A DNA stretch of 64,000 nt from Gallionellales bacterium GWA2_54_124 (GTDB lineage: Bacteria; Pseudomonadota; Gammaproteobacteria; Burkholderiales; Gallionellaceae), in contig MGWO01000007.1 in assembly GCA_001801025.1 (NCBI GenBank), positions 992,001 through 1,056,000 of the forward strand, in the 5' to 3' direction. Under the pieces are notes generated by a model. That model did not search any database, was not told the origin of the DNA, and saw only the letters and a program-made list of their open reading frames with translations. Below are positions 14,034 to 30,161 of this stretch, piece after piece (position 1 is the first letter of the stretch; every line of letters starts with the position of its first letter). A program made the position numbers and the translations under genes.

Positions 14034-14109
14034 GGGTGCTTAGCTCAGCTGGTAGAGCACCGCCCTTACAAGGCGATTGTCGGCGGTTCGAACCCGTCAG
14101 CACCCACCA
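14034..14109 (+). tRNA. tRNA-Val(UAC), copy 1
   Basis: A 76-base tRNA with acceptor GGGTGCT/AGCACCC, anticodon loop CTTACAA (UAC), T-loop GTTCGAACC and an encoded CCA. It is identical to the copy at 16218-16293. Confidence 0.97.
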
Positions 14110-14165
14110 ATTTGCAGTAAGTAACAATCAGTAGCGAGTGGTAAGTGACCTGTAGTACAAGTTTT

Positions 14166-14242
14166 GGAGTGGTAGTTCAGTTGGTTAGAATACCGGCCTG
14201 TCACGCCGGGGGTCGCGGGTTCGAGTCCCGTCCACTCCGCCA
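14166..14242 (+). tRNA. tRNA-Asp(GUC), copy 1
   Basis: A 77-base tRNA with acceptor GGAGTGG/CCACTCC, discriminator G, anticodon loop CTGTCAC (GUC) and an encoded CCA. It is identical to the copy at 16338-16414. Confidence 0.97.
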
Positions 14243-14246
14243 AATT

Positions 14247-14273
14247 AAGGCGAACGTAAAGTTCGCCTTTTTT
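14247..14273 (+). terminator. rho-independent terminator after tRNA-Asp copy 1
   Basis: A 9-bp stem (14247-14255 with 14261-14269), 5-base loop GTAAA, then a T run. It ends the hupB-tRNA transcript just before ppiD. Confidence 0.85.
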
Positions 14274-14309
14274 CATATCTGTCGTTCATAAATTTCGCCT
14301 GGGGTTGCT

Positions 14310-16199
14310 ATGTTTGATTTTGTTCATGAAAAAAGAAGGTTTGTGCAAATCGTCCTGCTGTTGATCATTTTGCCATTTGCATTCTTTGGTGTGGATTCAT
14401 ACCGTCATTCAGGCGACACGGATGCGCCGGCTACGGTTAACGGTGAAAAAATCACTAAACAGGAATTCGATACTGCCATGCGGCAGCAGCAAGACAAGAT
14501 GCGTCAGGTGCTGGGGGAAAATTTCGATCCCGCTCTGTTTGAAAAGGCGGAGATGAAGAGCGCGATTCTGGATAATCTAGTTGCGCAGCGCTTGCTGCTT
14601 GAGCGCGCTAAGGCGGCGGGACTCACGGTGACGGACGAGCAGATCGCACAGGTGATCGGCGGGATTGATGCCTTTAAGGACGGCGGTAAATTCGACAAGG
14701 CGCGTTACACGAGCGCGTTGGCAGCGCAAAACATGACGCCTGCGATATTCGAGGCGCGTGTCAAGGATGAGTTAACCGGTCAGCAGATGCGCGATGCGTA
14801 TACTCAGAATGGTTACGTATCGAACGCCGTTGCAGATAACATTATTGCAATCAATGAGCAGCAGCGCATTGTGAGTATCGCTCCGATTTCGCGCCGTTCA
14901 TTTTTGGCTCAGGCTAAGGTGGACGATGCAGCGATCAAGTCGTATTTTGACGCTAATCAAAAAGAGTTTCAGGTGCCGGAACAGGTTAAAGTTGAATACG
15001 TTAAATTTTCGATCGCTGATCTGATTGCGAAAGCGGATATCAAGGCTGAAGAAGTCCGTCAATATTATGACGAACATCAGTCAGAATTTGCCAGTCCCGA
15101 GCAGCGTCAGGCCTCGCATATTCTGCTGGTGGTCGCAGCTACCGCACCGCAGGCTGAACAGGATGCGGTAAAAGCGCGTGCTGAAAAGCTGCTGGCGCAG
15201 GTGAAGCAGGATCCCGCTAAATTTGCCGAGCTGGCACGTCAGAATTCTCAGGATCCGGGGTCGGCGGTTAACGGCGGCGATCTGGGAATGTTCGGTCGCG
15301 GCATGATGGTTAAGCCGTTCGACGAGGCGGTATTTTCCCTTAAGGCAGGTGAGATCAGCGGGCTGGTGAAATCCGATTTTGGTTATCACATTATTAAACT
15401 CACGGGGATCAAAGTGTCCCGCGCCACACCGTTCAATGAAGTGCAGGCAGAAATTGCGGGCAAGCTGCGTCAGCAAAAGGCGGCAGATTCGTTTGCAGAG
15501 CTGGCTGATAAGTTCAGTAATACGGTGTATGAGCAAAGTGATACCTTAAAGCCTGCGGCAGTGCTGGCAGGGGTTAAAGTAGCGCAGAGCGGGTGGCTGT
15601 CCAAAGGCGTTGTGGCGGACGAGATCTGGACGACTAAGATGCTGCAGGCGATTTTCAGCGATGACGTGATCAAGAATCATCGCAATACAGCTGCCGTCGA
15701 AGTTGCAGGCAGTACTTTGGTCGCGGCGCGCCTGTTAGAGCACAAGCCAGCGGCCGTTCGCGGGCTGGCAGAAGTGGCTGATTCGATCAAACAGAAATTA
15801 TTATTGAAAATAGCACTGGACATGTCTGTAAAACAAGGTACAATGCTGCTCGGTCAAATGCAGCAGGGTAATAAAGCCGCTGTGGATTGGTCGGTTGCGC
15901 AGGCGGTGACTCATGGTCAGCATGCCACACTGGATGCCGCAATTGTACGTAAGTTGTTTCAGGCGGATGGATCTAAGCTGCCTCAGTATGTGGGTTCTGA
16001 AACCCCGGATGGTTACACGATCGTTCGTATTGATGCGGTAAAAGAGGGTGCTAAACCCGATGATGTCAAACGTAGCAGATATGCGCAGCAGTTGCGTCAG
16101 ATGACAGGTGATGAGTTGTTTCAGGCATACATCGCTGATGCAAAAAAGAATGCGAAGATTAAGTTGAAGTTGCCGGAAGCGGCAACAGAAAAGCCTTAG
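14310..16199 (+). CDS. ppiD: membrane-anchored periplasmic chaperone/peptidyl-prolyl isomerase PpiD
   Basis: Inner-membrane-anchored folding helper for proteins leaving the Sec translocon. An N-terminal membrane helix (residues about 12-32, [15 protein letters not shown]) is followed by a SurA-N-like chaperone region with [10 protein letters not shown] (about 35-200). A parvulin rotamase domain follows (about 265-360; QRQASHILL ... [15 protein letters not shown] ... [10 protein letters not shown]), then a C-terminal helical region. 629 aa is typical. It sits between two identical tRNA-Val/tRNA-Asp pairs. Confidence 0.93.
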
Positions 16200-16217
16200 T
16201 GCTTTTGTAGTAGATAC

Positions 16218-16293
16218 GGGTGCTTAGCTCAGCTGGTAGAGCACCGCCCTTACAAGGCGATTGTCGGCGGTTCGAACCCGTCAGCACCCACCA
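16218..16293 (+). tRNA. tRNA-Val(UAC), copy 2
   Basis: Identical in all 76 bases to the copy at 14034-14109, including the CCA. It begins 18 bases after the ppiD stop and was probably transcribed with it. Confidence 0.97.
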
Positions 16294-16337
16294 AATAGCT
16301 GCTGAAAAGCGGCAAGAAGTAAGTAGTCTGTCGTATT

Positions 16338-16414
16338 GGAGTGGTAGTTCAGTTGGTTAGAATACCGGCCTGTCACGCCGGGGGTCGCGGGTTCGAGTCC
16401 CGTCCACTCCGCCA
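16338..16414 (+). tRNA. tRNA-Asp(GUC), copy 2
   Basis: Identical in all 77 bases to the copy at 14166-14242. The spacer to tRNA-Val is 44 bases here and 56 in copy 1, and the spacers differ in sequence. Confidence 0.97.
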
Positions 16415-17201: not shown

Positions 17202-18230
17202 GATGAGTTCTACTCACAATTTTCGATAAAACAGTTTCATTTAACGGTGCAAAGCGATATCGATACCATTCAAATTTATCTGACCCATCCTCTGGGATTG
17301 CTCATTGTGTTTGTTGCGGCAAGCTTCATGATGATTTGGCGTCTGCACGCGATGGAGAGCAAGGGCTTTGAAGGCACGGTGCTGGGCACGCTCATCATGC
17401 CTTACTGCTCTGGATTTGCAAATCTGGTGTTCGCCTATGTGATGAGCAAGTCGGCCGGCAATGGCGGGCTGGTCATCGAGAATTGCCTGGTCAACAATGC
17501 CACTAACCTTACTTTGCTGCTCGGCCTTTCCGCCCTGTTTGGCTCTGCTGCGGTGGTCAAAAAAAGTGCTGCAAAACGACACGCTGAATTTTTCCGTATC
17601 AACCGGCTGAATTTGCTGTTTACCCTGATCGCACTATTCCTGTTTACCGGCACGTTATGGGCATTAGCCAAGGATGGTGTACTCGATTTTTATGACGGAC
17701 TGGTATTGATTGCACTTTTTCTGTTCTGGCAGATCTTGCATGTCTTTGAAGTGCTCAAAGATAAAATCCGAAAAAATCAGGCGTTTCACTGGTCTATCGC
17801 AACCGATGTCATGCTGCTCGCCGCCAGCGCCTATTGCATCTATTTTGCAGTCGATCACCTTGTGACATGGGTGAGCCATACAGAAAATCCGCTGTTCAGC
17901 TTTGCCAGACTCGGTTGGTTCAGCGGCTTATTGATGGTGGTGCCTAATGCATTTCTTGCCTTGTACTATACGCGTATCGGCCGGCAGGACATCGTCATGA
18001 GTTCGCAAATCGGTGACGGGCACATTTGCATTCCCATGTGTATCGGTCTGTTCTCGGTGTTCAACACCATACAGGTGCCGGATTTTTTGTCGATGGGGGT
18101 CTATGTGATCCTGAGTGCCGGGGTGATCCACTTTCTGTCTATCGCGATCTTCGGTCGTGTTCAGCGTGCATTGGGCGTTGTCCTGATCGGCGGTTATGCC
18201 TTTTTCCTGTATCAGGGGCTTATTCCGTGA
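17172..18230 (+). CDS. sodium/calcium exchanger-like (CaCA superfamily) membrane protein
   Basis: A polytopic inner-membrane protein of about 352 residues with some ten hydrophobic segments. The two halves each carry an alpha-repeat-like segment: NCLVNNATNLTLLLG (near residue 110), and VPNAFLALYYTRIGR with MSSQIGDGHICIP (near 255-285). Polar Asn, Ser and Gly lie inside membrane spans, as in cation/Ca exchangers. The canonical GTSxPE signature is absent, so the transported ion is uncertain. The only upstream start is a GTG at 17172, inside the second copy of the 31-bp repeat and without a clear ribosome site; GTG 17247 is an alternative. Its 3' end overlaps the convergent GGDEF gene by 11 bases. 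Confidence 0.65.
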   Translation: MYSSLDGKITDEFYSQFSIKQFHLTVQSDIDTIQIYLTHPLGLLIVFVAASFMMIWRLHAMESKGFEGTVLGTLIMPYCSGFANLVFAYVMSKSAGNGGLVIENCLVNNATNLTLLLGLSALFGSAAVVKKSAAKRHAEFFRINRLNLLFTLIALFLFTGTLWALAKDGVLDFYDGLVLIALFLFWQILHVFEVLKDKIRKNQAFHWSIATDVMLLAASAYCIYFAVDHLVTWVSHTENPLFSFARLGWFSGLLMVVPNAFLALYYTRIGRQDIVMSSQIGDGHICIPMCIGLFSVFNTIQVPDFLSMGVYVILSAGVIHFLSIAIFGRVQRALGVVLIGGYAFFLYQGLIP

Positions 18231-19281
18231 TGTCGTGCTCGCTGAGCGTGATTCGATTGCGGCCGGCGGCTTTGGACTGGTATAGCGCAGCGTCTGCCAT
18301 TGATAAGATCGCTTTGCCGTTTTTAAGGGGATTTTGGTTCAGCCTTGCAACGCCAAAAGACAGGGTCACCTGTAACCATTCATCCTCCAGCGCATGACCT
18401 GTCGGCCCGATTTTTGCAAATCGATGCCCGGCAACGGTGAGTCTTAGGCGCTCAACGATCGCTAGCACCTGATTGATTTCGGTATCTTCGTAAATCAGCA
18501 AAAATTCTTCACCGCCGTAGCGGCCTGCGACATCTAAATGCTTGCGTATCGCAGTTTTAAAGAGTGTACCCACTTCTTGCAGCACCGAATCCCCCTGAAT
18601 ATGCCCGTATTCATCGTTGATTTTTTTGAAAAAATCGATGTCCGCGAGCACCACCGCACCGGGGGCATGGTTTTTGCGCAGCTGGCGTTGGACGGACTTT
18701 TCCAGCTCTTCCCGGATGGCGCGGCTGTTCATCAGACCGGTTAAGCTGTCATAGCTCGCCAGCGCTTCAAATTGGGTTTTCATCAGCACGGCGCTCAGCA
18801 TATTGCACATGATTTCACACATGCGTACTTCATGCTCTTTGATGTCGGATTCATCGCCGAAAAAATCCCCCGCCAGCAAATAACCGTAGCCTAAGTTTTC
18901 CGGCAGATAAATGCTGCCCACCATATCGCACCCCCAGCCGGGGATATTGATGGCCGAGACATTCCGGTGCTTGAAGGCCATGACTTCATTGGTAAATTCC
19001 AGCGGCGGGTGCTCAATATTCAGGCACAGCTTACTGCCTTCGAGCAAATCGGGCCTGATGTGATCAGGATTGCAAACGGTCATTACCTCTAAAATCAGAT
19101 CTTGTTCAATCACATTGGTGATTTTGTACAGCACCCCGATATGAAATCCCAGTGTGTTATTGATGATTTGCAGCGGTTTCTCAAAATAACTACGATCACG
19201 ATGAGGAACATTGGTTAGGTGATAACTTAATTCGCCCAGCTGATTCAGTAGATATTCAGCCGAATTTGCAACTTTGCTCAT
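18220..19281 (-). CDS. GAF-like sensor diguanylate cyclase
   Basis: Predicted soluble c-di-GMP synthase. Residues about 1-170 look like a GAF-type sensor; no membrane helix is seen. A GGDEF domain follows (about 180-345) with active-site variant GGEEF, which is competent in known cyclases. The usual RxxD inhibitory site is replaced by KHLD. The start at 19281 (MSKVANSAEYLL) is chosen because an AAGGA site lies 9 bases upstream; longer starts at 19290 and 19320 place that site inside or against the coding region. It converges on the CaCA-type gene. Confidence 0.88.
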   Translation of the reverse strand: MSKVANSAEYLLNQLGELSYHLTNVPHRDRSYFEKPLQIINNTLGFHIGVLYKITNVIEQDLILEVMTVCNPDHIRPDLLEGSKLCLNIEHPPLEFTNEVMAFKHRNVSAINIPGWGCDMVGSIYLPENLGYGYLLAGDFFGDESDIKEHEVRMCEIMCNMLSAVLMKTQFEALASYDSLTGLMNSRAIREELEKSVQRQLRKNHAPGAVVLADIDFFKKINDEYGHIQGDSVLQEVGTLFKTAIRKHLDVAGRYGGEEFLLIYEDTEINQVLAIVERLRLTVAGHRFAKIGPTGHALEDEWLQVTLSFGVARLNQNPLKNGKAILSMADAALYQSKAAGRNRITLSEHDITE

Positions 19282-19335
19282 ACTAAACATCCTTAAAAGA
19301 TACTCAAGTGCAGGCGGCATTACTAAAAAGACGCG

Positions 19336-20964
19336 CTACTTCACCGGCTGGTGAAAGCGGTGGCAGCTGTCGCAACCGCTGGTTACCATCCCCTTTGCCG
19401 GTCGGTTACCGCTATGGCATTCGCGGCATTTTGTGATCGCAGGTATCGCGATGTCTGCGCTGAGCTTTGAATTTAGCTTGTCGTGGCAATCTGTACACTT
19501 CATCGTTTCGTGTTTGGCATGGTTAAATACAGCCCCGGGTTGCCAGTCACGATTGATGCGTACGGGAGTGACTTTCCACGGGACATCCTTTTCGCCGCTG
19601 GGTTTGATTTCATGACATTCGCCGCATTCAAGCCGGTCTTTTTTGGAGAGGGGGCGGGTTCTGAACAGGGTTGCGGCTGCATTTTTATCAGCCAGTTCAT
19701 TTGCACAGGCCAGCATCGAGGGTGTGTCGGCGTTATTCTGACACGCATTTTCAGGTGCGCTGGTCAGCCAGTTGATATAAAACTCGCGTAACCTGTCCAT
19801 GACGGCATGTTCAGAACCGTGCGGTGCCAATCCTTCCACAGGCTCTGTGAAGTCAAGCGCATGACAACCCGATTGCTGGCAGGTATTTTTCATCGTCATC
19901 GCCTCAAAATGTCGTCCGGACTCTTCCAGTTTGTGGCAATCCTGACAGCGCATCACAGTATCTCCCTGCGGTGTCGAGATGCCTTCCTTCGCCAGATGAA
20001 CCTGATGCGAATATTTCAATCCGGAGTTTTCGACCAATCCGGCTTTATCATCCTGACGCAGGCGGATGAGCTGGTCTCCTTTGAATAAAGACAGTCGAAA
20101 GGGCGGATGACCCGTTGCAAAATCACTGACGTTGCCAAGTTGTGAGTCGGCAAGCGTATGTTTGATCTCAGCATGACAGCTGACGCATTTTGACGAGTCA
20201 TGCAGCAGCAGCTGTTCAGCACCTTTGTGGTCGATATGGCAATTGGTACAACGCATCGTATGAAAGGTTTTATCCTGCAACGCTTCCTTCGTAAGGTGGC
20301 GCCCCACCTGTTTGTGGCAGCCGGTACAAATCTCATCAGAAATCGCAGTGAACGGCTTTTGATGGCAGGACGAACATTTCGCATCCAGCATGCGGTGTCC
20401 GCCAGCCAGCGGTTCGGGGCTCCAGGCACCCGTTAAGGTGAGGGGCAGGCTGGCCTGCCACTTGTTCAATGCGCCCGAAAAATGCGGCAGCATCGGTAAA
20501 AACAGGAAAAAAAACAGAATGACGGCTGCAAGGCTAAACCCGAACTTTCGTTTGCTCAATCCGAGTGCTGCAACGGTGAGCGGGATGTCCGGCTTTGCTG
20601 CATCGGTATGATTGAGCGGATGAATCAGTTCGATGGATAAAATCAGGTCATACCCGCCGGCTAGAGGTTCGACGATCAGTAGATAGGGGCCGATTTCGAT
20701 CTGAGTTCCGGGTATTAATGCTGCGTGCTGAGCGATATAACCATTGATTTTTAGCGTGACATTTTTCTCGCCGTTGATGAACAGCGCGCCGTTTTCAGAT
20801 CTGACGATCAAAGCATGCAGCTGGCTGACGCGGTGATCGAGCAGGTGGATTTTGCATGCGGCTCCGCGGCCAATTTCGATCGTTGCACCTGAAATGAGGC
20901 TGTCTTTGCAAACGGGCAGTCCCTGCGGGCTGCGCGAGACATGAATTAACAGGCAGGAGATCAT
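19336..20964 (-). CDS. FHA domain-decaheme c-type cytochrome fusion
   Basis: A 542-residue protein joining signalling and electron-transfer modules. Residues about 20-100 form a forkhead-associated (phosphothreonine-binding) domain (IEIGRG, then VSQLHALI). A single membrane helix lies at about 141-160. The C-terminal part (197 onward) carries ten haem-binding sites: nine CXXCH (CSSCH, CTGCH, CTNCH, CVSCH, CQDCH, CGECH, CTDCH, CRECH, CDSCH) and one CX4CH (CQQSGCH). The expected topology is cytoplasmic FHA and periplasmic cytochrome. The start is the ATG at 20964, five bases after the stop of the membrane b-type gene; a frame extending back to 21057 would overlap that gene. Likely partners are the two upstream redox genes. 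Confidence 0.85.
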   Translation of the reverse strand: MISCLLIHVSRSPQGLPVCKDSLISGATIEIGRGAACKIHLLDHRVSQLHALIVRSENGALFINGEKNVTLKINGYIAQHAALIPGTQIEIGPYLLIVEPLAGGYDLILSIELIHPLNHTDAAKPDIPLTVAALGLSKRKFGFSLAAVILFFFLFLPMLPHFSGALNKWQASLPLTLTGAWSPEPLAGGHRMLDAKCSSCHQKPFTAISDEICTGCHKQVGRHLTKEALQDKTFHTMRCTNCHIDHKGAEQLLLHDSSKCVSCHAEIKHTLADSQLGNVSDFATGHPPFRLSLFKGDQLIRLRQDDKAGLVENSGLKYSHQVHLAKEGISTPQGDTVMRCQDCHKLEESGRHFEAMTMKNTCQQSGCHALDFTEPVEGLAPHGSEHAVMDRLREFYINWLTSAPENACQNNADTPSMLACANELADKNAAATLFRTRPLSKKDRLECGECHEIKPSGEKDVPWKVTPVRINRDWQPGAVFNHAKHETMKCTDCHDKLNSKLSADIAIPAITKCRECHSGNRPAKGMVTSGCDSCHRFHQPVK

Positions 20965-20969
20965 TCTGG

Positions 20970-21902
20970 TTACCAGTAAAAAAAGATCGAGACGATGTGT
21001 GCTGTCAGTGCGGCCAGCAGGGCAATACCTAACGGTGCGTGCAGGTAGAGCCAGCATTCCATGCGCGCTTTGAGCATGACTTCCGTTCTTGCACGCAAGA
21101 CCAATTTTTCTTTACGCAGCAGCAGGGAGTAGAGATCCCGCATGATTTTTGGCTGCTCACCCCGATTGTATTTTTCGCTCAATATGCGCAGTTGTTCGAC
21201 GCCGAAACTCGTCGGGCAATTATATTGCTTGCCGCTCAATTGCTGTAAAAGCGTGCCGCCTATACGCGTTTCATTGCGCACTTTTGCAATCAGGGAATTG
21301 ATTTCATCGGGCAAACCCAGTGCGCGGGTGCGGGCCAATTCATCCAGTTCATTGATTTTTAGCATCAGATCTTCCAGCGTTTCCTCCCCCATATTGAGGG
21401 TGATCAATCGGGGGTAATTCAGGTAGACGCTCAGCCCGTACAAACCGCTGGTGATGACGAGCAGCATCAGCGCATAGGCCAGCGTATGTACATTCAGGCC
21501 GAAATGAAATCCGGTATGCAGTGTGACCAGCACGACAAGCGATGCGCCTAGATAGACATGCGCTGAGAGCCATTCCTGCAGCGTGGCGCCGTTCATCCCG
21601 CGCGATTTTGTATGCGGCTTGCGGCGCTCCTGACCTGCAGGCGCGGATTGCCTGCGAGCGTCGCGTCTGTCCGGGGCTCCCGTGATGCGTCGTTTGGTCA
21701 CGCCATACCACATCAAGAGCAGCATGATCAGGGTGGAGAGGGTTCCTAACGTGTAGCCTAACCAGGTGCCGCCGTAGGATTCTCCACCGGCGGGATTGAT
21801 CAGTGCATAGGCTGTGATGGCGACCAGTATCAATGCACTGGTGGCTTTGAGATAACGGAAATTCTTGTATTTGAGCAGCGTAGCGCCTTGCATCTTGTTC
21901 AT
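20970..21902 (-). CDS. membrane protein, probable b-type cytochrome
   Basis: A 310-residue inner-membrane protein with about five hydrophobic helices: near 17-37, 42-68, 113-135, 138-160 and 285-309. Histidines sit in or near the central and last helices (SAHVYLG, LHTGFHFGL, VHTLAY, YLHAPLG, LTAHIV), a pattern expected for haem b ligation. The long loop between helices 4 and 5 is charged and probably cytoplasmic. A GGAG ribosome site precedes the ATG. Position between the FAD/ferredoxin fusion and the FHA-multihaem cytochrome suggests it passes electrons across the membrane. The family is not recognised with certainty. Confidence 0.7.
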   Translation of the reverse strand: MNKMQGATLLKYKNFRYLKATSALILVAITAYALINPAGGESYGGTWLGYTLGTLSTLIMLLLMWYGVTKRRITGAPDRRDARRQSAPAGQERRKPHTKSRGMNGATLQEWLSAHVYLGASLVVLVTLHTGFHFGLNVHTLAYALMLLVITSGLYGLSVYLNYPRLITLNMGEETLEDLMLKINELDELARTRALGLPDEINSLIAKVRNETRIGGTLLQQLSGKQYNCPTSFGVEQLRILSEKYNRGEQPKIMRDLYSLLLRKEKLVLRARTEVMLKARMECWLYLHAPLGIALLAALTAHIVSIFFYW

Positions 21903-21929
21903 TCTCGACTCCGGTAGTGTGCAGGCGAT

Positions 21930-24323
21930 CTACTTGACATATTCCATGAAATTTTCCGGGCTGACGCGGAACGCCGCACCCGTTGGACAGGCCCGTACGC
22001 AGACGGGGCCGCCGATGATGTCTTTGCACATATCGCATTTGACGGCGATTTTCGGTAATTCAGGCGCGTCCGCTGCGGCAGGTTTTGCCGCAGGATTGAG
22101 GCCCAGCATGACTTGCCAGATGCTGCGCTTTTGATAATCCTGTTTGACCGCCATTTGAATCACGCCGTAGGGGCAATTGGTCTGGCAGTTTCCGCAGCCG
22201 ATACAATTGTCGCTGATGAACACCTCGCCGTTGACCGAGCGGTGTATTGCGTCGGGCGGGCAGTCCTTCATGCAATGGGGATGTTCGCAGTGTCGGCATG
22301 AAGTGGGAACGTGAATCTGCGCAAAGGTCGAGCCGGCTTCCCGGTCGAGACGCGAGGTGCCGTCATGGGCATCCGCACAGGAGGTTTCGCAGTTGTTGCA
22401 GCGTATGCAGCGTGCATAGTCGATCAGCAGCACATCGGTGGCTTCACCAACGCCCTGACCCATCAGGAAATTGATCAGCTCGCTCGATTCGCTCGACAGC
22501 GCGTGCTCATCGGAGCGTACCTGTTCCAGATAACGACTGTCGACTTTGCGGCGCATCGAGGTGTTTCTGCCCAGCACTTCGGCGACCCGAACCGATTCTA
22601 ATAAGACGACTTCAGTCGGGGAGGCTGCCCGTACGGTAGCTGAACGGGGCTGACTCGACATCAGCGCCATTTCTCCCACGTAATTTCCCGCCGATACATA
22701 GGCTAGCACCACTTCCTTGCCGGCTACGATGCGCGATACGGTGACCGAGCCGCGCCGTATCATATAAAGGCCGTCCGCCTTGTCACCCTCGCTAAACAGC
22801 ACATCCCCTACCGCATAGCGCCTGGGTTGTGCCCCCTGAACTAGATAGCTGAGCTCGCTTTCAGGCAGCGAGGTGTCAAGACAGCCGCTCACGGCGCGTT
22901 TGAGAGAGACTTCGTCGAGTTTGCGCTGAACACCGGCCGCAGAGTAGAGCAGTTTGAGCATCGAACGGCGGGGTGTTTCGACCAGTATGCAGTTTTCGCT
23001 GGCGACGACGGTGCCTGAGCGGCGGCGGCCCGATAGCAGTCCCATCTCACCAAAAAAGTTGCCGGCTCCCAGAGCGAAAACGGCTTCATTGCCGTTTTGA
23101 TCTTCCGTTTGCACCGCCACGCGGCCTTCCAGAATCGAAAAGAAGCTGTTGCTGTAATCATTGCGGCTGAAAATAATTTCGCCGCGTGATGGGATGCGTA
23201 CACTGCTGTCGAGCATGAATTCGCGTAATTGCAAGGTCGTGAGCGGGGCAAGCAGGGGTTGGTTGATGCGCAGCAGCGCGATTCCCTCGCTGACTGAGTG
23301 TATGTCCGGTACGCCGGCAAATTTTTGTTTCAGCAGCGCTTCGTCGGCCGGTTCGACCGGATTGCCCAGGATGTATTCGATGACCTCGTAGCCTTGATTC
23401 ATCGCCTGCTTGATGAGCGGGTAACCTGCCAGCGCACCAACGATATATAAACCCGGCAGGTTTGATTCGTATTGTTCGGTCAGCTGGGGAACGGACGTCG
23501 AGTCGCCGTTCGGGAAGGCGACACCGAAACTTTCCACCAGTTGGCGCGGTGGCTTTGCCCCCAGACGTGCGATGACGCGGTGACATTCGATCTGCTCGTG
23601 ACCTTCAGGCGTTTGCGCGAGATAGCTCAGCTTGAAATTGCCTGTGTTGGACGCTTCAATGCGTTCTGTGAGCGTGCTGACACGGGTTTCGATTTTTCCC
23701 TGTGAAATTGCCGCCATCAGCTGGTCAAAGTTGGCCTCCTTGCAGTTGCTGAATTCTTCCTGACGGTTAATCAAAATCACGCGGTTTTGCGCAGAAAGTG
23801 CCAGTGCGTTTTCTACGCCGGCATCGCCGCCGCCAACGACGACAATGGTTTCATCGCGGAACGCTTCCGGATCGTCTAGATGGTACTGAACCCCGGGCAG
23901 GTCTTCACCCGGTACGGCCAGTTTGCGAATATTGCCCTGCACGCCGATGGCAAGCACGACAAACTCCGCGCTGACGGATACGCCCGATGCCAGTGTGATT
24001 TCGAATGCGCCCGCTTCCCCTGTAATGGCGGTAACGGCCGAACTGACACGAAAATTGACCCCAAGCCCGCCGAGTTCATTGTGCCAGGTATTCAGAATGT
24101 GTTCGCGTATGCCGGCGCCGAAGCTGATTGAGCTCCTCAGCGGTAGCACGGAGGGTTCCGCCATTACCGACTTTCCTTTTTGAAAGTGGTGGATGGTATT
24201 GGCCAGCTGTGGTGCGGCTTCGAGCAGCAGGTGGCTGATGCCATGTTCCGCTGCGCGTGCTGCTGCTGACAGGCCGCCGGGCCCGGATCCAACGATTACT
24301 ATTTTGAACTTTTCACTTGTCAT
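21930..24323 (-). CDS. FAD/NAD(P) oxidoreductase fused to two cyclic-nucleotide domains and a ferredoxin module
   Basis: A 797-residue cytoplasmic fusion. The N-terminal 315 residues are a thioredoxin-reductase-like flavoprotein with two dinucleotide folds (IVGSGPGGLSAAA and VVVGGGDAGVENA) but no redox-active CxxC pair. Two CRP-type cyclic-nucleotide-binding domains follow (about 355-470 and 490-600), both with phosphate-binding cassettes (FGEMGLLSGRRRSGTV and VGEMALMSSQPRSATV). Residues 635-797 are a four-cluster ferredoxin module with CIRCNNCETSC, CRHCEHPHCMKDCP, CIGCGNCQTNCP and CDMC...CVRACP. The ATG at 24323 is preferred over a TTG at 24338. It is first in a three-gene set with the membrane b-type protein and the FHA-decaheme cytochrome, so NAD(P)H-to-cytochrome electron flow gated by a nucleotide is plausible. 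Confidence 0.88.
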   Translation of the reverse strand: MTSEKFKIVIVGSGPGGLSAAARAAEHGISHLLLEAAPQLANTIHHFQKGKSVMAEPSVLPLRSSISFGAGIREHILNTWHNELGGLGVNFRVSSAVTAITGEAGAFEITLASGVSVSAEFVVLAIGVQGNIRKLAVPGEDLPGVQYHLDDPEAFRDETIVVVGGGDAGVENALALSAQNRVILINRQEEFSNCKEANFDQLMAAISQGKIETRVSTLTERIEASNTGNFKLSYLAQTPEGHEQIECHRVIARLGAKPPRQLVESFGVAFPNGDSTSVPQLTEQYESNLPGLYIVGALAGYPLIKQAMNQGYEVIEYILGNPVEPADEALLKQKFAGVPDIHSVSEGIALLRINQPLLAPLTTLQLREFMLDSSVRIPSRGEIIFSRNDYSNSFFSILEGRVAVQTEDQNGNEAVFALGAGNFFGEMGLLSGRRRSGTVVASENCILVETPRRSMLKLLYSAAGVQRKLDEVSLKRAVSGCLDTSLPESELSYLVQGAQPRRYAVGDVLFSEGDKADGLYMIRRGSVTVSRIVAGKEVVLAYVSAGNYVGEMALMSSQPRSATVRAASPTEVVLLESVRVAEVLGRNTSMRRKVDSRYLEQVRSDEHALSSESSELINFLMGQGVGEATDVLLIDYARCIRCNNCETSCADAHDGTSRLDREAGSTFAQIHVPTSCRHCEHPHCMKDCPPDAIHRSVNGEVFISDNCIGCGNCQTNCPYGVIQMAVKQDYQKRSIWQVMLGLNPAAKPAAADAPELPKIAVKCDMCKDIIGGPVCVRACPTGAAFRVSPENFMEYVK

Positions 24324-24481: not shown

Positions 24482-25363
24482 TTAAACTTCGCTGTTAACA
24501 ACGGATTCCGCCTCAGAATACAGCGTGTTCAGCTGCACCTCATCAAGTTCTAAAATACGCAGGCTGACATCCCCCAGCTTGCTCCATTCATGCGTCATGC
24601 TGAGGCCGAGCTGCTTTTGCACGATGTGCTCGGCCAGTTGTGCGGTGGCAATCAGTCTGCGGCTGAGTAACGGGAGTTGAGAACTGAGCGATTCTAATGC
24701 CATCAGGTCATGGTGATTGCGTATCGCCAGGCAAATCTCCTCAGGCAGCCACCAGCTTTGCGCAAGTATGCAGCCGATCATCGCGTGGTTGGTGGACAGG
24801 CCGTTATTTTCGATTTCGGTAAAGCTGTGTTCGGTGCTTGAATTGGCTTCATTCAGAATTTTTTCATATTGCGGGAAGCGTCCGAGCAAGACCGGAATCC
24901 CGCAGTCGCGGAACAGACCGAAGGTATAAGTGTCTTCAGCACGCAGGCCGTGAATATTTAAGTGTTGGGCCAGCCAGCCTGACAAATGTGCAATACGGGC
25001 GGAGGCGTCCCAGAAACGCTCCATATTTGGCACGTTAGGAAATGCCTTGCGCAGAATGATGCCAGCTACCGCACGACTGGCTGGTTTGAGTCCCAGTATG
25101 CTGAGTGCTTCATTGACTGATCGCACGCGTTGACGCAAACCAAAGTAAGGCGAGTTGGCTGTTTTGATCAGTCCGGCTGACAGACCGACATCGCTGCCGA
25201 TAATACTGGCCAGCCGGTTGAAGTCAGGTTCGTCCAGGCGCGCTTCATTCATGAAACGATCGAGGATAAGCGGGCAGGGCGGAATGCCGACATCGAGGAT
25301 GGAACGTTCGATCAGGTTGTCAACGGCGGACGGGTTTGCGGCATCTTGTATGTTTTGCGTCAT
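24482..25363 (-). CDS. HDOD domain protein
   Basis: A 293-residue protein of the HDOD family, whose members usually act in signalling without proven hydrolase activity. The HDOD core spans about 25-225 (PPCPLILDRFM ... DVGLSAGLIKTANSPYFG ... SVNEALSILGL). The position of the HD pair of HD-GYP enzymes reads RD (GLFRDCG), so catalysis is unlikely. Its start overlaps the GGDEF-EAL gene by 4 bases (ATGA), so the two products are made together. The same pairing recurs at 59491-62933. Confidence 0.88.
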   Translation of the reverse strand: MTQNIQDAANPSAVDNLIERSILDVGIPPCPLILDRFMNEARLDEPDFNRLASIIGSDVGLSAGLIKTANSPYFGLRQRVRSVNEALSILGLKPASRAVAGIILRKAFPNVPNMERFWDASARIAHLSGWLAQHLNIHGLRAEDTYTFGLFRDCGIPVLLGRFPQYEKILNEANSSTEHSFTEIENNGLSTNHAMIGCILAQSWWLPEEICLAIRNHHDLMALESLSSQLPLLSRRLIATAQLAEHIVQKQLGLSMTHEWSKLGDVSLRILELDEVQLNTLYSEAESVVNSEV

Positions 25364-26649
25364 TGTGTATTCCTGTTCTGAAGCCAGTGAAGCAGCGCTT
25401 CTTCGGGCATCGGTTTTGCGTAGAAAAAGCCCTGAATTGCATCGACGCCGGCATCGAATAATGCGTCGATTTCCTTCTGGTGTTCACACCCTTCGGCAAC
25501 TACCGTCATGCCCAGTTCGTGTCCCAGTTGTGTCATCGCACGGACCACGGCAAGGGCGCGGCGATCTTCCGGCAGTACCGTCACGAAAGCGCGATCGAGT
25601 TTGAGTTTTTTTGCTGGAATGTCTTTAAGGTTAGCCAGGCATGAATAGCCTGTGCCAAAATCGTCGATCGATAAACTCACGCCCGCAGCGATGGCATTTT
25701 TAAGATTGTTCTGCACGGTATCGGAGATGTCCATGAACAGCGACTCGGTCAGTTCCAGTTCGATTAATTCCGGTTTTACGTTGGAGCAGATCAGTGCTGC
25801 ATGCAGCGCCTGTGTGAACTTGGAAGAAACGAGTTGAGCGCGCGAGACGTTGATGGCCACTTTAGTGTGATATCCGGCATCCTGAAGCTGGCGCGCTTGC
25901 AATGCGCCTTGCAATAAACTCCATTCGCCGAGTCTGACGATCAGTCCGGTCTTTTCGGCAACCGGGATAAATTTGCCAGGCGGCAGATTGATGCCGTTAA
26001 CGGTGCAACGCATCAAGGCTTCGACGGCTTCAATTTTTCCATTGGCAAGAATGATAGGCTGGTAGTGTAAGCAGAGTCCGCCTGTCTCCAGCGCATCGTG
26101 CAGCATGCTTTCAATTGAAATTTCTTCTCGCGCGAGCGTGATGCCCAGCCTGCCCGGAATGGGTTCGTCGCCGGAAAAAACGATGCAGTTTCCCCCTTTG
26201 TCCTTGGCCGCATACATGGCACGGTCCGCACGCTCGAGTAAGGCGAGGGAGCTTTCATCCGTGTCGCAAATTGCGATGCCGATACTGGCGGTAGGGCAGA
26301 GTGTCAGATTGCCGATATTGATGATTTCACTGATGGTGCTGGCAAGTTCACGGGCAAAATTTTCTGCGCTTGCACGGTTGCAGCGTGGCACGAGAAAGAC
26401 GAACTCATCTCCTCCCATGCGGGCAATTTCGGCGCGGCCGCTCGCACGATTGCGCAGGCGGACAGCGAGATCCTTGATCACTTCGTCGCCTCCGGGGTGG
26501 CCGAACGATTCATTGATGCGTTTGAAACGGTCCAGATCAATCCAGATGGCCGCGTAAGGCTGGTATTGCGCTATTGCGGCAAATCGTCCTGCCGCCGCTA
26601 AGCAGCCGAAGCGTCCCAGAAGTCCGGTGAGTGGGTCTGTGCTATTCAT
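25360..26649 (-). CDS. GGDEF-EAL c-di-GMP turnover protein without a sensor domain
   Basis: A 429-residue soluble protein made only of a GGDEF domain (about 1-165) and an EAL phosphodiesterase domain (about 175-425). The GGDEF motif is intact but lacks an RxxD inhibitory site. The EAL domain keeps EALMR, ELTES and DDFGTGYS, the metal and substrate residues of active phosphodiesterases. The protein begins MNSTDPLTG, directly at the cyclase fold, so any input must come from a partner, for instance the ATGA-coupled HDOD protein. Confidence 0.9.
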   Translation of the reverse strand: MNSTDPLTGLLGRFGCLAAAGRFAAIAQYQPYAAIWIDLDRFKRINESFGHPGGDEVIKDLAVRLRNRASGRAEIARMGGDEFVFLVPRCNRASAENFARELASTISEIINIGNLTLCPTASIGIAICDTDESSLALLERADRAMYAAKDKGGNCIVFSGDEPIPGRLGITLAREEISIESMLHDALETGGLCLHYQPIILANGKIEAVEALMRCTVNGINLPPGKFIPVAEKTGLIVRLGEWSLLQGALQARQLQDAGYHTKVAINVSRAQLVSSKFTQALHAALICSNVKPELIELELTESLFMDISDTVQNNLKNAIAAGVSLSIDDFGTGYSCLANLKDIPAKKLKLDRAFVTVLPEDRRALAVVRAMTQLGHELGMTVVAEGCEHQKEIDALFDAGVDAIQGFFYAKPMPEEALLHWLQNRNTQ

Positions 26650-29084: not shown

Positions 29085-30161
29085 TTAGGCAAAGCAGGTC
29101 ACGCGGTTTCTACCCTCTTGTTTTGCGTGATACATCGCCTGATCTGCATCGCGCTGGATGTCCTCGATTGCATGATGGTGCGGCAAATTAGGTGCGACGC
29201 CTATGCTGGCGGTAATTTTCAGTTGCGTTTCGCCGGTTGTGGGCATCAGGCTTTCAATGTCCAGACGCAGCTTTTCCGCCAGCGTCAATGCGCCTTGCAA
29301 ATCCGTGTTGGGGAGGAACATGGAAAATTCCTCTCCGCCGATACGCCCCAGCGCGTCGCTTAGACGGGTATTGCGCAGCAGGCATGCGGCGGTGTCACGC
29401 AATACCGTATCCCCGGCTTCGTGTCCGTAGGTGTCATTCACGCGTTTGAAGTGGTCCAGGTCGATAAACAGCACGGCAAACGGCGCACCCGTGCGCAATG
29501 CGCCGCTGATCAGTTGCTCGCACGTAGCATAATAAGCGCGGGCATTCATCAGTCCCGTGAGTGGATCGGTTGCCGCCAGTTCACGCAACTGTCGGTTGGC
29601 TTCGGTCATGCGTTTAAAAAAAGAAACGAAACGCTTGCTGTAGGCAAAGAAGAAAATGCTTGAATAAGTAAAGGTCAGCACAACGGTGGTGAGCGCGTTG
29701 TCCGAATAGGGCGCGGAAATATAGCGGTTGGCAGCAAAAATGCAGGCGAATGAAATCAGCGTAACGCACACTCCTGCGATCTGTCCGAGCAGAATGTAGA
29801 CTGCGGGCAGATTGATAAAGTACCAGAGGATGCGCATCGGATCGTCCGGCACCAGAATCAGTGCGGAAAGGTAGATCAGCAGGCTGGCCGTTTCGGTGAG
29901 TATCGCGATGACTAAAAAGCGCTCCTTGTGTCCGTATAGTGCCGCGGTCAGCACAATGCACGTGGCAAAATAGGCAATGTTGTTGCGCACATGCAGGCCG
30001 GAGAGGTGGTTCACTTGCAGACGGTCAGCCAGAATGAACAGGCCTGAAAAGAAAATTCCCATCAGCAGCAGCGCATACAACAGGCGGAACTGGAAGCGCT
30101 GATATTCTTCGTCTTCCGGAAAATTGACGCCGCCAAAGAGGAGGGATTCGATTTTAGTCAT
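29085..30161 (-). CDS. membrane-bound diguanylate cyclase
   Basis: A 358-residue c-di-GMP synthase. The first 185 residues contain about six hydrophobic helices (for example LLMGIFFSGLFILAD, AILTETASLLIYLSAL and TYSSIFFFAYS), an integral-membrane sensor whose ligand is unknown. The GGDEF domain follows (about 195-355) with active GGEEF and an RxxD inhibitory site (RLSD) five residues before it. It stands alone between a tRNA operon and the cyanophycin locus. Confidence 0.9.
   Translation of the reverse strand: MTKIESLLFGGVNFPEDEEYQRFQFRLLYALLLMGIFFSGLFILADRLQVNHLSGLHVRNNIAYFATCIVLTAALYGHKERFLVIAILTETASLLIYLSALILVPDDPMRILWYFINLPAVYILLGQIAGVCVTLISFACIFAANRYISAPYSDNALTTVVLTFTYSSIFFFAYSKRFVSFFKRMTEANRQLRELAATDPLTGLMNARAYYATCEQLISGALRTGAPFAVLFIDLDHFKRVNDTYGHEAGDTVLRDTAACLLRNTRLSDALGRIGGEEFSMFLPNTDLQGALTLAEKLRLDIESLMPTTGETQLKITASIGVAPNLPHHHAIEDIQRDADQAMYHAKQEGRNRVTCFA

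Follow-up and report, generated by a model that had tools for sequence, protein, structure and literature searches.

A conserved trio of flavin, haem b and decahaem genes with cyclic-nucleotide-binding domains in a Gallionellaceae genome: a candidate module for the export of NAD(P)H electrons

The window analysed here is a 64,000-nucleotide stretch of the genome of Gallionellales bacterium GWA2_54_124 (GenBank assembly GCA_001801025.1, contig MGWO01000007.1, positions 992,001 to 1,056,000 of the forward strand). It holds three genes that lie end to end on the minus strand and encode a flavoprotein with cyclic-nucleotide-binding and iron-sulfur (Fe-S) domains, a membrane protein, and a decahaem cytochrome c with an FHA-like domain, called here FLAV, IMP and FHA10. 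The trio is real and conserved, and its combination of domains is new as a variant of a machine type that has already been described. Judging from the sequences, it is probably a cyclic-nucleotide-controlled transmembrane module, through which electrons from NAD(P)H reach haem proteins in the periplasm or at the cell surface. The presence, order and domain make-up of the trio, as claimed in an earlier note on this DNA, are confirmed by the open reading frames (ORFs), Pfam matches and motifs of the minus strand.

Conservation and domain make-up of the trio

The association of the three genes was followed in the best 80 named loci of at least 486 with a FLAV relative. IMP directly follows FLAV, or is fused to it, in 47 of the 80 loci, and FHA10 comes next in 44 of these 47, the remaining three loci stopping at contig ends. 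In the 33 genomes without an adjacent IMP, a whole-genome search with the IMP profile is positive in every case (32 at E 1e-81 or better), one of the proteins found being a fragment cut off where its contig ends. From the class, 274 genomes were drawn evenly, own genome included, and searched at E<=1e-40 for IMP, E<=1e-150 for FLAV and E<=1e-40 for BARREL, a gene of the larger cluster that surrounds the trio in many relatives. IMP is present in 15 of these genomes, FLAV in 13 and BARREL in 11, the latter two always within the 15; such nesting of FLAV has a probability of about 2e-20 if the genomes are independent, which is true only in part. In the two genomes where IMP is listed without FLAV (G102 and G307), a FLAV gene adjoins IMP on one contig; in G307 the contig breaks off within this gene. 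Moreover, FLAV and IMP form a single continuous ORF in two Magnetococcales records (L037 3052-6423 and L041 8995-12351). The conservation of the trio across classes is far beyond chance, and the genome-wide neighbourhood check proposed in the earlier note finds the genes kept together.

The carriers include Duganella, Lysobacter, Tahibacter, Limnobacter, Alcanivorax and Sphingobium, and of the 80 listed records, 64 or more are named as something other than Gallionella-type iron bacteria. The tie to iron drawn in the earlier note is not upheld by this spread, and an iron-specific function is rejected as a general account, the carriers being judged by their names and not by metabolism. As a separate observation, the fused L037 shares 66% identity with the window protein, compared with 62% for two same-genus copies, which is a hint of lateral transfer. 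In one Gallionella record, a further IMP-FLAV pair lies close to the trio but on the other strand (L103 15059-18493).

FLAV starts at the ATG at 24323 and is a protein of three parts. Pfam finds Pyr_redox_2 (98 bits), two cNMP_binding stretches and several 4Fe-4S families. In a comparison of profiles with solved structures, the Rossmann domain matches the bacillithiol reductase Bdr (7a7b, E 2.3e-21), and no invariant Cys is found in it in a table of 82 rows. The cyclic-nucleotide-binding domains score 139.7 bits against a cut-off of 27.5 and match the structures of PKA-R/PKG and CRP. The residues of the nucleotide pockets, Glu and Arg in CRP and PKA, are E426 and R433-435 (82/82 alignment rows), E551 (82/82) and R560 (81/82). 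The Fe-S domain matches HycB3 of the hydrogen-dependent CO2 reductase (7qv7, E 9.9e-23), and its 16 ferredoxin-type Cys (Cys 639-779) are invariant in all 82 rows.

The cyclic-nucleotide input proposed in the earlier note is supported by both pockets, which are intact, and by the occurrence of cyclases in the genome and sometimes next to the cluster. The genome of the window has five PF00211 cyclase matches; counting it, 34 of 37 genomes searched contain at least one. Cyclase-like genes adjoin the cluster or stand close to it in L074, L082 (the same as L147), L085, L092, L112, L157, L159 and L164; Pfam confirms their identity for L074, L092, L147 and L112.

IMP has five hydrophobic segments, and the positive-inside distribution of its loops places the N terminus inside and the C terminus outside. 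The long loop between the fourth and fifth transmembrane (TM) helices, with a mean of 129 residues, is cytosolic by the loop charges. The protein has four His in two HX13H motifs, and from the motifs and the topology His115 and His288 would lie near the cytosolic face and His129 and His302 near the periplasmic face. No Pfam family is found above its cut-off in IMP, the best sub-threshold match being Ni_hydr_CYTB (20.1 bits, cut-off 30.1). AlphaFold gives a good model of the protein (pLDDT 85.5).

The start of FHA10 is better set at the ATG at 20964 than at 21057, because the latter would overlap the IMP gene; the preferred ATG lies 5 bases past the IMP stop. Its FHA-like domain exceeds the Pfam cut-off of 20.7 bits, and its haem motifs are nine CXXCH and one CX4CH. 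FHA10 is complete in 44 of the 80 loci and has ten motifs in all 44, of which 28 have ten CXXCH and 16 have nine plus one longer motif. An alignment limited to rows with at least nine CXXCH and less than 700 aa shows Cys at all ten haem positions in 53 of 53 rows. The phosphothreonine contacts of FHA domains, an Arg, a Ser and an Asn, do not follow this pattern. Arg33 is kept in 49 of 53 rows; position 47 is Ser in only six, the window protein being one with Ser, and the position taken as the contact Asn is Ala in 32. Four rows lack the FHA region and retain a short cytosolic tail and the TM helix. Since the Ser and Asn contacts are not conserved and the region can be missing, phosphothreonine binding is rejected for the family, and with it the second regulatory input suggested in the earlier note. 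A role in docking or assembly is more likely for the domain.

Table 1. Features of the trio (positions counted from the first letter of the window)
Feature	Positions	Strand	Size or basis
FLAV: FAD/NAD(P)-binding, 2 x cNMP-binding, 4 x [4Fe-4S] protein	21930..24323	-	797 aa
FLAV, YpdA/TrxR-like FAD + NAD(P) Rossmann domain, residues 6-311	23391..24308	-	Pfam Pyr_redox_2; Bdr 7a7b
FLAV, tandem cyclic-nucleotide-binding domains, about residues 365-460 and 487-604	22512..23231	-	Pfam PF00027; structures
FLAV, four [4Fe-4S] site domain, HycB/HydN-like, residues 632-784	21972..22430	-	Pfam; HycB3 7qv7
IMP: five-TM putative di-haem b membrane protein; two WX3HX13H, SGxxG	20970..21902	-	310 aa
FHA10: cytosolic FHA-like domain, one TM helix, periplasmic decahaem cytochrome c	19336..20964	-	542 aa
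FHA10, FHA-like domain	20668..20901	-	Pfam FHA 26.8 bits; Yop-YscD_cpl below cut-off
FHA10, single TM helix, residues 141-159	20488..20544	-	hydropathy
FHA10, ten c-haem motifs	19360..20376	-	motif positions

The cluster in relatives and in the host genus

Many relatives from other genera than that of the window have the trio within a cluster of six or seven genes, together with an HbpS-like gene (HBPS), an AlgE-like barrel (BARREL), a large decahaem gene (MHC10L) and a cytochrome c554-type gene (C554). The order in gamma- and alphaproteobacteria is FLAV-IMP-FHA10-HBPS-BARREL-MHC10L, and 27 of the 80 loci show an IMP adjoining FLAV plus at least one of HBPS, BARREL and MHC10L in view. Seven loci (L145-L150 and L154, FLAV being edge-cut in L149 and L150) have the rotated order IMP-FHA10-HBPS-BARREL-MHC10L-C554-FLAV. 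C554 lies upstream of FLAV in 28 of the 33 loci without an adjacent IMP, and the five of them that were extended all show the rotated order. Partial clusters also occur, namely C554-FLAV-IMP-FHA10 in L157 and L158 and clusters without the barrel in G121 and G184.

HBPS matches HbpS-like haem-degrading proteins in the three copies scanned, and C554 matches cytochrome c554. A by-eye reading of HBPS as a lipoprotein was dropped, as a crude motif check fits 13 of 33 copies. The model of BARREL is a beta barrel of moderate confidence (mean pLDDT 69.9, pTM 0.71), whose best PDB matches are the alginate exporter AlgE (E about 1e-16, query TM-score about 0.5, rmsd about 8). MHC10L has ten haem motifs where complete and LVIVD repeats in the one 1253-aa form scanned, and its profile finds no match in the PDB at E<=0.1. 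The mean pairwise identity within the same five genomes is 70.6% for MHC10L, 58.8 for FLAV, 56.2 for BARREL, 51.8 for HBPS, 49.2 for C554, 43.6 for IMP and 37.9 for FHA10. As the most conserved member, MHC10L appears to be enzyme-like rather than wire-like, and looks like an envelope or surface enzyme of a new type.

Examples of MHC10L are L084 3873-7634, with LVIVD repeats, and L104 17600-20361, which is cut; the protein has about 1250 aa and about 70% identity between distant genomes. The system of Sphingobium herbicidovorans is plasmid-borne (pMSHV). In this record (L112 2841-16950), the outer half of the system has beside it genes of two-partner secretion (ShlB/FhaC and a 2092-aa protein), a CHAT protein and a CHASE2 cyclase, and a ShlB-like gene flanks FLAV in L008 (1-1464).

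The window's genus presents a simpler picture. A strong IMP is found in 10 of 37 same-genus genomes, each time with FLAV and FHA10 adjoining, and the BARREL and MHC10L profiles find nothing in any of the 37, own genome included. The C554 profile gives one weak partial match among them (G005) and none in own genome. The trio in this genus therefore seems to be a core on its own. Among near relatives, those with names are Gallionella, Sideroxydans and Ferrigenium, which makes an iron oxidiser of the Gallionellaceae the most likely host. Elsewhere in own genome lies a DmsE-family decahaem gene with an MtrB/PioB porin, an MtoAB-like pair which is a possible electron partner of the trio. An eight-haem protein precedes this pair (L170 9217-15138, G000:C7); its C-terminal part weakly matches formate dehydrogenase gamma, below the cut-off, and it may be a fusion of haem c and haem b parts.

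Relation to PCC3, PCC4 and other electron-transfer systems

According to the passages of He et al. (2017, PMC5566968) which describe it, the inner-membrane protein of PCC3 and PCC4 has five TM helices, with a WX3HX13H motif on each of helices 3 and 5 and an SGxxG motif on helix 4, and is proposed to hold two b haems and to exchange electrons with quinones. All of these sequence features are present in IMP. In a draw of 398 genomes from the phylum, the IMP profile matches 32 at E<=1e-6, 15 strongly (E<1e-40) and 17 weakly. Among 84 distinct strong IMP ORFs of at least 240 aa, both WX3HX13H motifs are found in 81 and SGxxG in 78, and 14 of 17 weak IMP ORFs have both WX3HX13H motifs.

The claim of the earlier note that no described pathway has this combination holds in part. 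The pairing of this type of membrane protein with multihaem cytochromes is already described as PCC3/PCC4, and most of the additional clusters of this kind hold "another redox protein", in the words of the same passages. On the other side, the terms FHA, cyclic nucleotide and FAD are absent from the main text of PMC5566968, and its four mentions of flavin, going by the passages shown, refer to extracellular shuttles. The combination of cyclic-nucleotide, FHA and multihaem parts was not found in the literature search, although Supplementary Table 6 or Figure 4 of PMC5566968 may list some of the genes. PMC13264449, in the part seen, merely likens its own clusters to PCC4, and no functional test of this machine type was found in the literature searched.

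Loci were matched to PCC3 and PCC4 through the description and gene content in the paper, not by accession. The trio resembles PCC4 in an IMP with two WX3HX13H motifs and SGxxG, in an Fe-S protein encoded upstream of it, and in a decahaem cytochrome. The upstream Fe-S gene is the mark of PCC4 subgroup II, and its family PF13247 is found in FLAV at 6.3e-8. Unlike PCC4, the window trio has no porin, tetrahaem or pentahaem gene alongside; the ten-haem gene is the only multihaem gene at the trio, and the BARREL profile gives zero matches in own genome, PCC4's own porin family being outside this search. Four weak-IMP loci of the phylum draw (L202, L206, L208 and L209) are PCC4-like, with a C554-type gene upstream, a gene for a cyclic-nucleotide-binding and Fe-S protein before IMP and a ten-haem gene after it. 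Their cyclic-nucleotide-binding Fe-S protein is without a flavin domain, unlike FLAV, and the three decahaem proteins scanned show no FHA match, unlike FHA10. In the two of these loci that were scanned, a gene of about 420 aa before C554 encodes an FNR-type NAD/2Fe-2S protein, with a match to an FAD domain in one.

PCC3 consists, in the passages of PMC5566968 and PMC10734462 that describe it, of a periplasmic cytochrome with 21-27 haems, an extracellular one with 10-35 haems and a porin. No such genes stand beside the trio, which shares with PCC3 an IMP of the same motif class. It differs in that the domains fused in FLAV are on separate genes in PCC3. The PCC3-type IMPs of the same genus match the window IMP profile at only E 1e-16 to 3e-6. 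The trio (10 of 37 genomes) and these proteins (8 of 37) never occur together in the genus, and this absence of overlap is not significant (P about 0.06). Among relatives, the weak-IMP loci L126-L132 represent six same-genus genomes and G059 of another family; a FLAV-like gene adjoins the weak IMP in six of the six loci L127-L132, and five of the seven show, in a short view, a cytochrome with at least 14 CXXCH. The 11 weak-IMP loci of the phylum draw (L202-L212) comprise, besides the four PCC4-like ones, three PCC3-like loci with cytochromes of at least 19 haems and four with only IMP and a multihaem gene.

The domain content of PCC3-like loci was scanned for L152 and L203. The order in L152 (G007) is a 743-aa gene, porin-like by its place only, a 12-haem gene, a 27-haem gene, IMP, a Crp-type gene and a divergent Fe-S/Pyr_redox gene; L203 has a FLAV-like gene about 4 kb off. 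NAD(P)H-flavin modules are therefore found beside this type of IMP in three arrangements and two fold families, not visible in every locus. The first arrangement is Pyr_redox fused with cyclic-nucleotide-binding and Fe-S domains (FLAV, in window-type loci), the second is Fe-S-Pyr_redox on its own gene (the two PCC3-like loci scanned), and the third is the FNR-type NAD/2Fe-2S protein (the two PCC4-like loci scanned).

Two other systems offer partial likenesses. MtrCAB and MtoAB also rely on decahaem electron transfer in the periplasm, and differ from the trio, in which no MtrB-type porin stands beside FHA10. The NADPH oxidases (NOX) and ferric reductases provide an analogy of NAD(P)H, flavin and two b haems held by HX13H pairs on TM3 and TM5, followed by outward transfer. 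The NOX transmembrane domain has six helices; IMP has five, and in the trio four Fe-S sites stand between flavin and haem. A plain sequence relationship to MtrA or to the NOX/FRD family was rejected, as FHA10 scores 26.4 bits against the cut-off of 192.2 for the DmsE/MtrA-family decahaem model TIGR03508, and no Pfam match of IMP to the ferric reductase/NOX transmembrane domain is found up to E 0.1.

Electron route, direction and alternative explanations

The route proposed in the earlier note, from NAD(P)H through FAD, Fe-S clusters and membrane haem b to a periplasmic decahaem protein, gains support from the conserved association, the fused genes, the topology and the motifs. In this mechanism, NAD(P)H would reduce the FAD of FLAV in the cytosol, and the electrons would run along its four [4Fe-4S] clusters to the two b haems of IMP. 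These haems would be held by the HX13H pairs, one near each face of the membrane. From IMP the electrons would leave for the periplasmic side and be received there by the ten c haems of FHA10; a single helix presumably anchors FHA10 in the inner membrane. The binding of a cyclic nucleotide to the two CRP/PKA-type domains, located between the flavin and Fe-S domains, may switch or tune this flow; such control of a redox enzyme by tandem domains would be unusual. In many relatives, FHA10 probably feeds the outer-envelope set of HbpS-like protein, barrel, large decahaem and C554-type cytochrome. As neither the barrel nor the large decahaem is present in the window's genus, FHA10 would have to feed another periplasmic acceptor there, and the MtoAB-like conduit of own genome could be this acceptor.

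Electron transfer from NAD(P)H to a periplasmic cytochrome is downhill in redox potential and runs with the membrane potential, whereas the reverse transfer opposes both. For this reason we infer that the flow through the trio is outward. Expression data on related clusters are divided. In Sideroxydans ES-1, the PCC3 clusters are lower on Fe(II) than on thiosulfate in the passages seen of PMC8788666, a pattern more in keeping with outward flow or an unrelated use than with iron oxidation. In iron-oxidising cells of Sideroxydans CL21, the membrane protein of PCC3 copy 2 rose, as stated in the part seen of PMC12442390.

Several observations count against the export of NAD(P)H electrons by the trio. 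G027, a complete relative, has IMP-FHA10 with an HbpS piece and is without full-length FLAV or the barrel, a Thiomargarita genome has other genes than FHA10 after IMP, and no FLAV-like gene is in view in 6 of the 11 weak-IMP loci of the phylum draw. The di-haem b fold also stays a prediction: the IMP model has no Foldseek match in the PDB at E<=0.001 (best E 0.53), and VIA-align returns helix bundles alone (sensor bundles, TTYH and ABC transporters, Z up to 10.7), such Z values being common for bundles, so that these fold searches exclude no family. A sequence search of the PDB with the IMP profile likewise gives nothing better than E about 0.5.

The first alternative to be weighed is a quinone-linked conduit, which is considered unlikely. 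IMP would then trade electrons with the quinone pool, electrons would enter from a donor outside the cell, for instance Fe(II), and FLAV would be a side branch or a maker of NAD(P)H. This is the model of He et al. for the same motif class, in the passages seen of PMC5566968, and it would suit a host that is probably iron-oxidising and has MtoAB-like genes, as well as the rise of the membrane protein in CL21. A pure quinone route has no need of a FLAV that is fused to, adjacent to and co-occurring with IMP, or of NAD(P)H-flavin modules by related IMPs. Moreover, the reduction of NAD(P) from the periplasmic side would be uphill and against the membrane potential, most of the listed records are not named as Gallionella-type iron bacteria, and PCC3 goes down, not up, on Fe(II) in ES-1.

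A second alternative, judged improbable, assigns to the full system an extracellular reduction by the large decahaem, for example one that acts with the HbpS-like protein to free iron from haem or from chelates; the window trio would be a leftover core. The enzyme-like conservation of MHC10L, above that of the six other members, and the HbpS-like family matches speak for it. It cannot be the function in the window's genus, where the barrel and the large decahaem are missing, and it is compatible with the export of electrons rather than exclusive of it.

The trio as a mere redox sensor, which would report the periplasmic redox state via its FHA and cyclic-nucleotide domains without metabolic flux, with the adjacent GGDEF and GGDEF-EAL genes as output, is very improbable: signalling-type domains in two proteins, the c-di-GMP genes adjoining the trio in the window and the cyclases beside some clusters would suit it, while the full sets of 16 Fe-S Cys and ten haem motifs are retained and the FHA Ser, or the whole FHA region in four of 53 rows, is not.

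The export of NAD(P)H electrons, as the preferred explanation of the trio, has consequences for PCC3 and PCC4. These are cited as candidate conduits of iron oxidation, with a membrane protein proposed to exchange with quinones, and the NAD(P)H-flavin modules that adjoin this type of IMP or are fused with it suggest another electron partner and, on energetic grounds, flow in the reverse direction. The testable claim is that the PCC3/PCC4-type membrane protein would take its electrons from NAD(P)H-flavin modules. A wider reading is offered tentatively and may well be wrong: PCC3, PCC4 and the trio cluster would form one class of NAD(P)H-driven, cyclic-nucleotide-controlled exporters, with a shared five-helix haem b protein at their centre that has recruited NAD(P)H-flavin modules of differing folds. 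Such exporters would be bacterial counterparts, in function, of the NADPH oxidases, supplying multihaem proteins where the oxidases supply oxygen with electrons, PCC3 and PCC4 would work mainly outward, and the large decahaem would be a new envelope or surface reductase. Since the module occurs in about 5% of the sampled class genomes (15/274) and its named carriers include genera of aerobic heterotrophs, the export of electrons from NAD(P)H by such a route may be widespread.

The neighbours of the trio in the window are, by Pfam, GGDEF, HDOD and GGDEF-EAL genes and an exchanger gene. The GGDEF, HDOD and GGDEF-EAL genes flank it at 18220-19320 and 24482-26649, and with a further GGDEF-like gene, recognised by eye at 29085-30161, the c-di-GMP genes are dense around the trio. 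Elsewhere in the window, a tRNA-Val/tRNA-Asp pair is present twice (14034-16414), on either side of a gene at 14310-16199 that is PpiD-like by eye.

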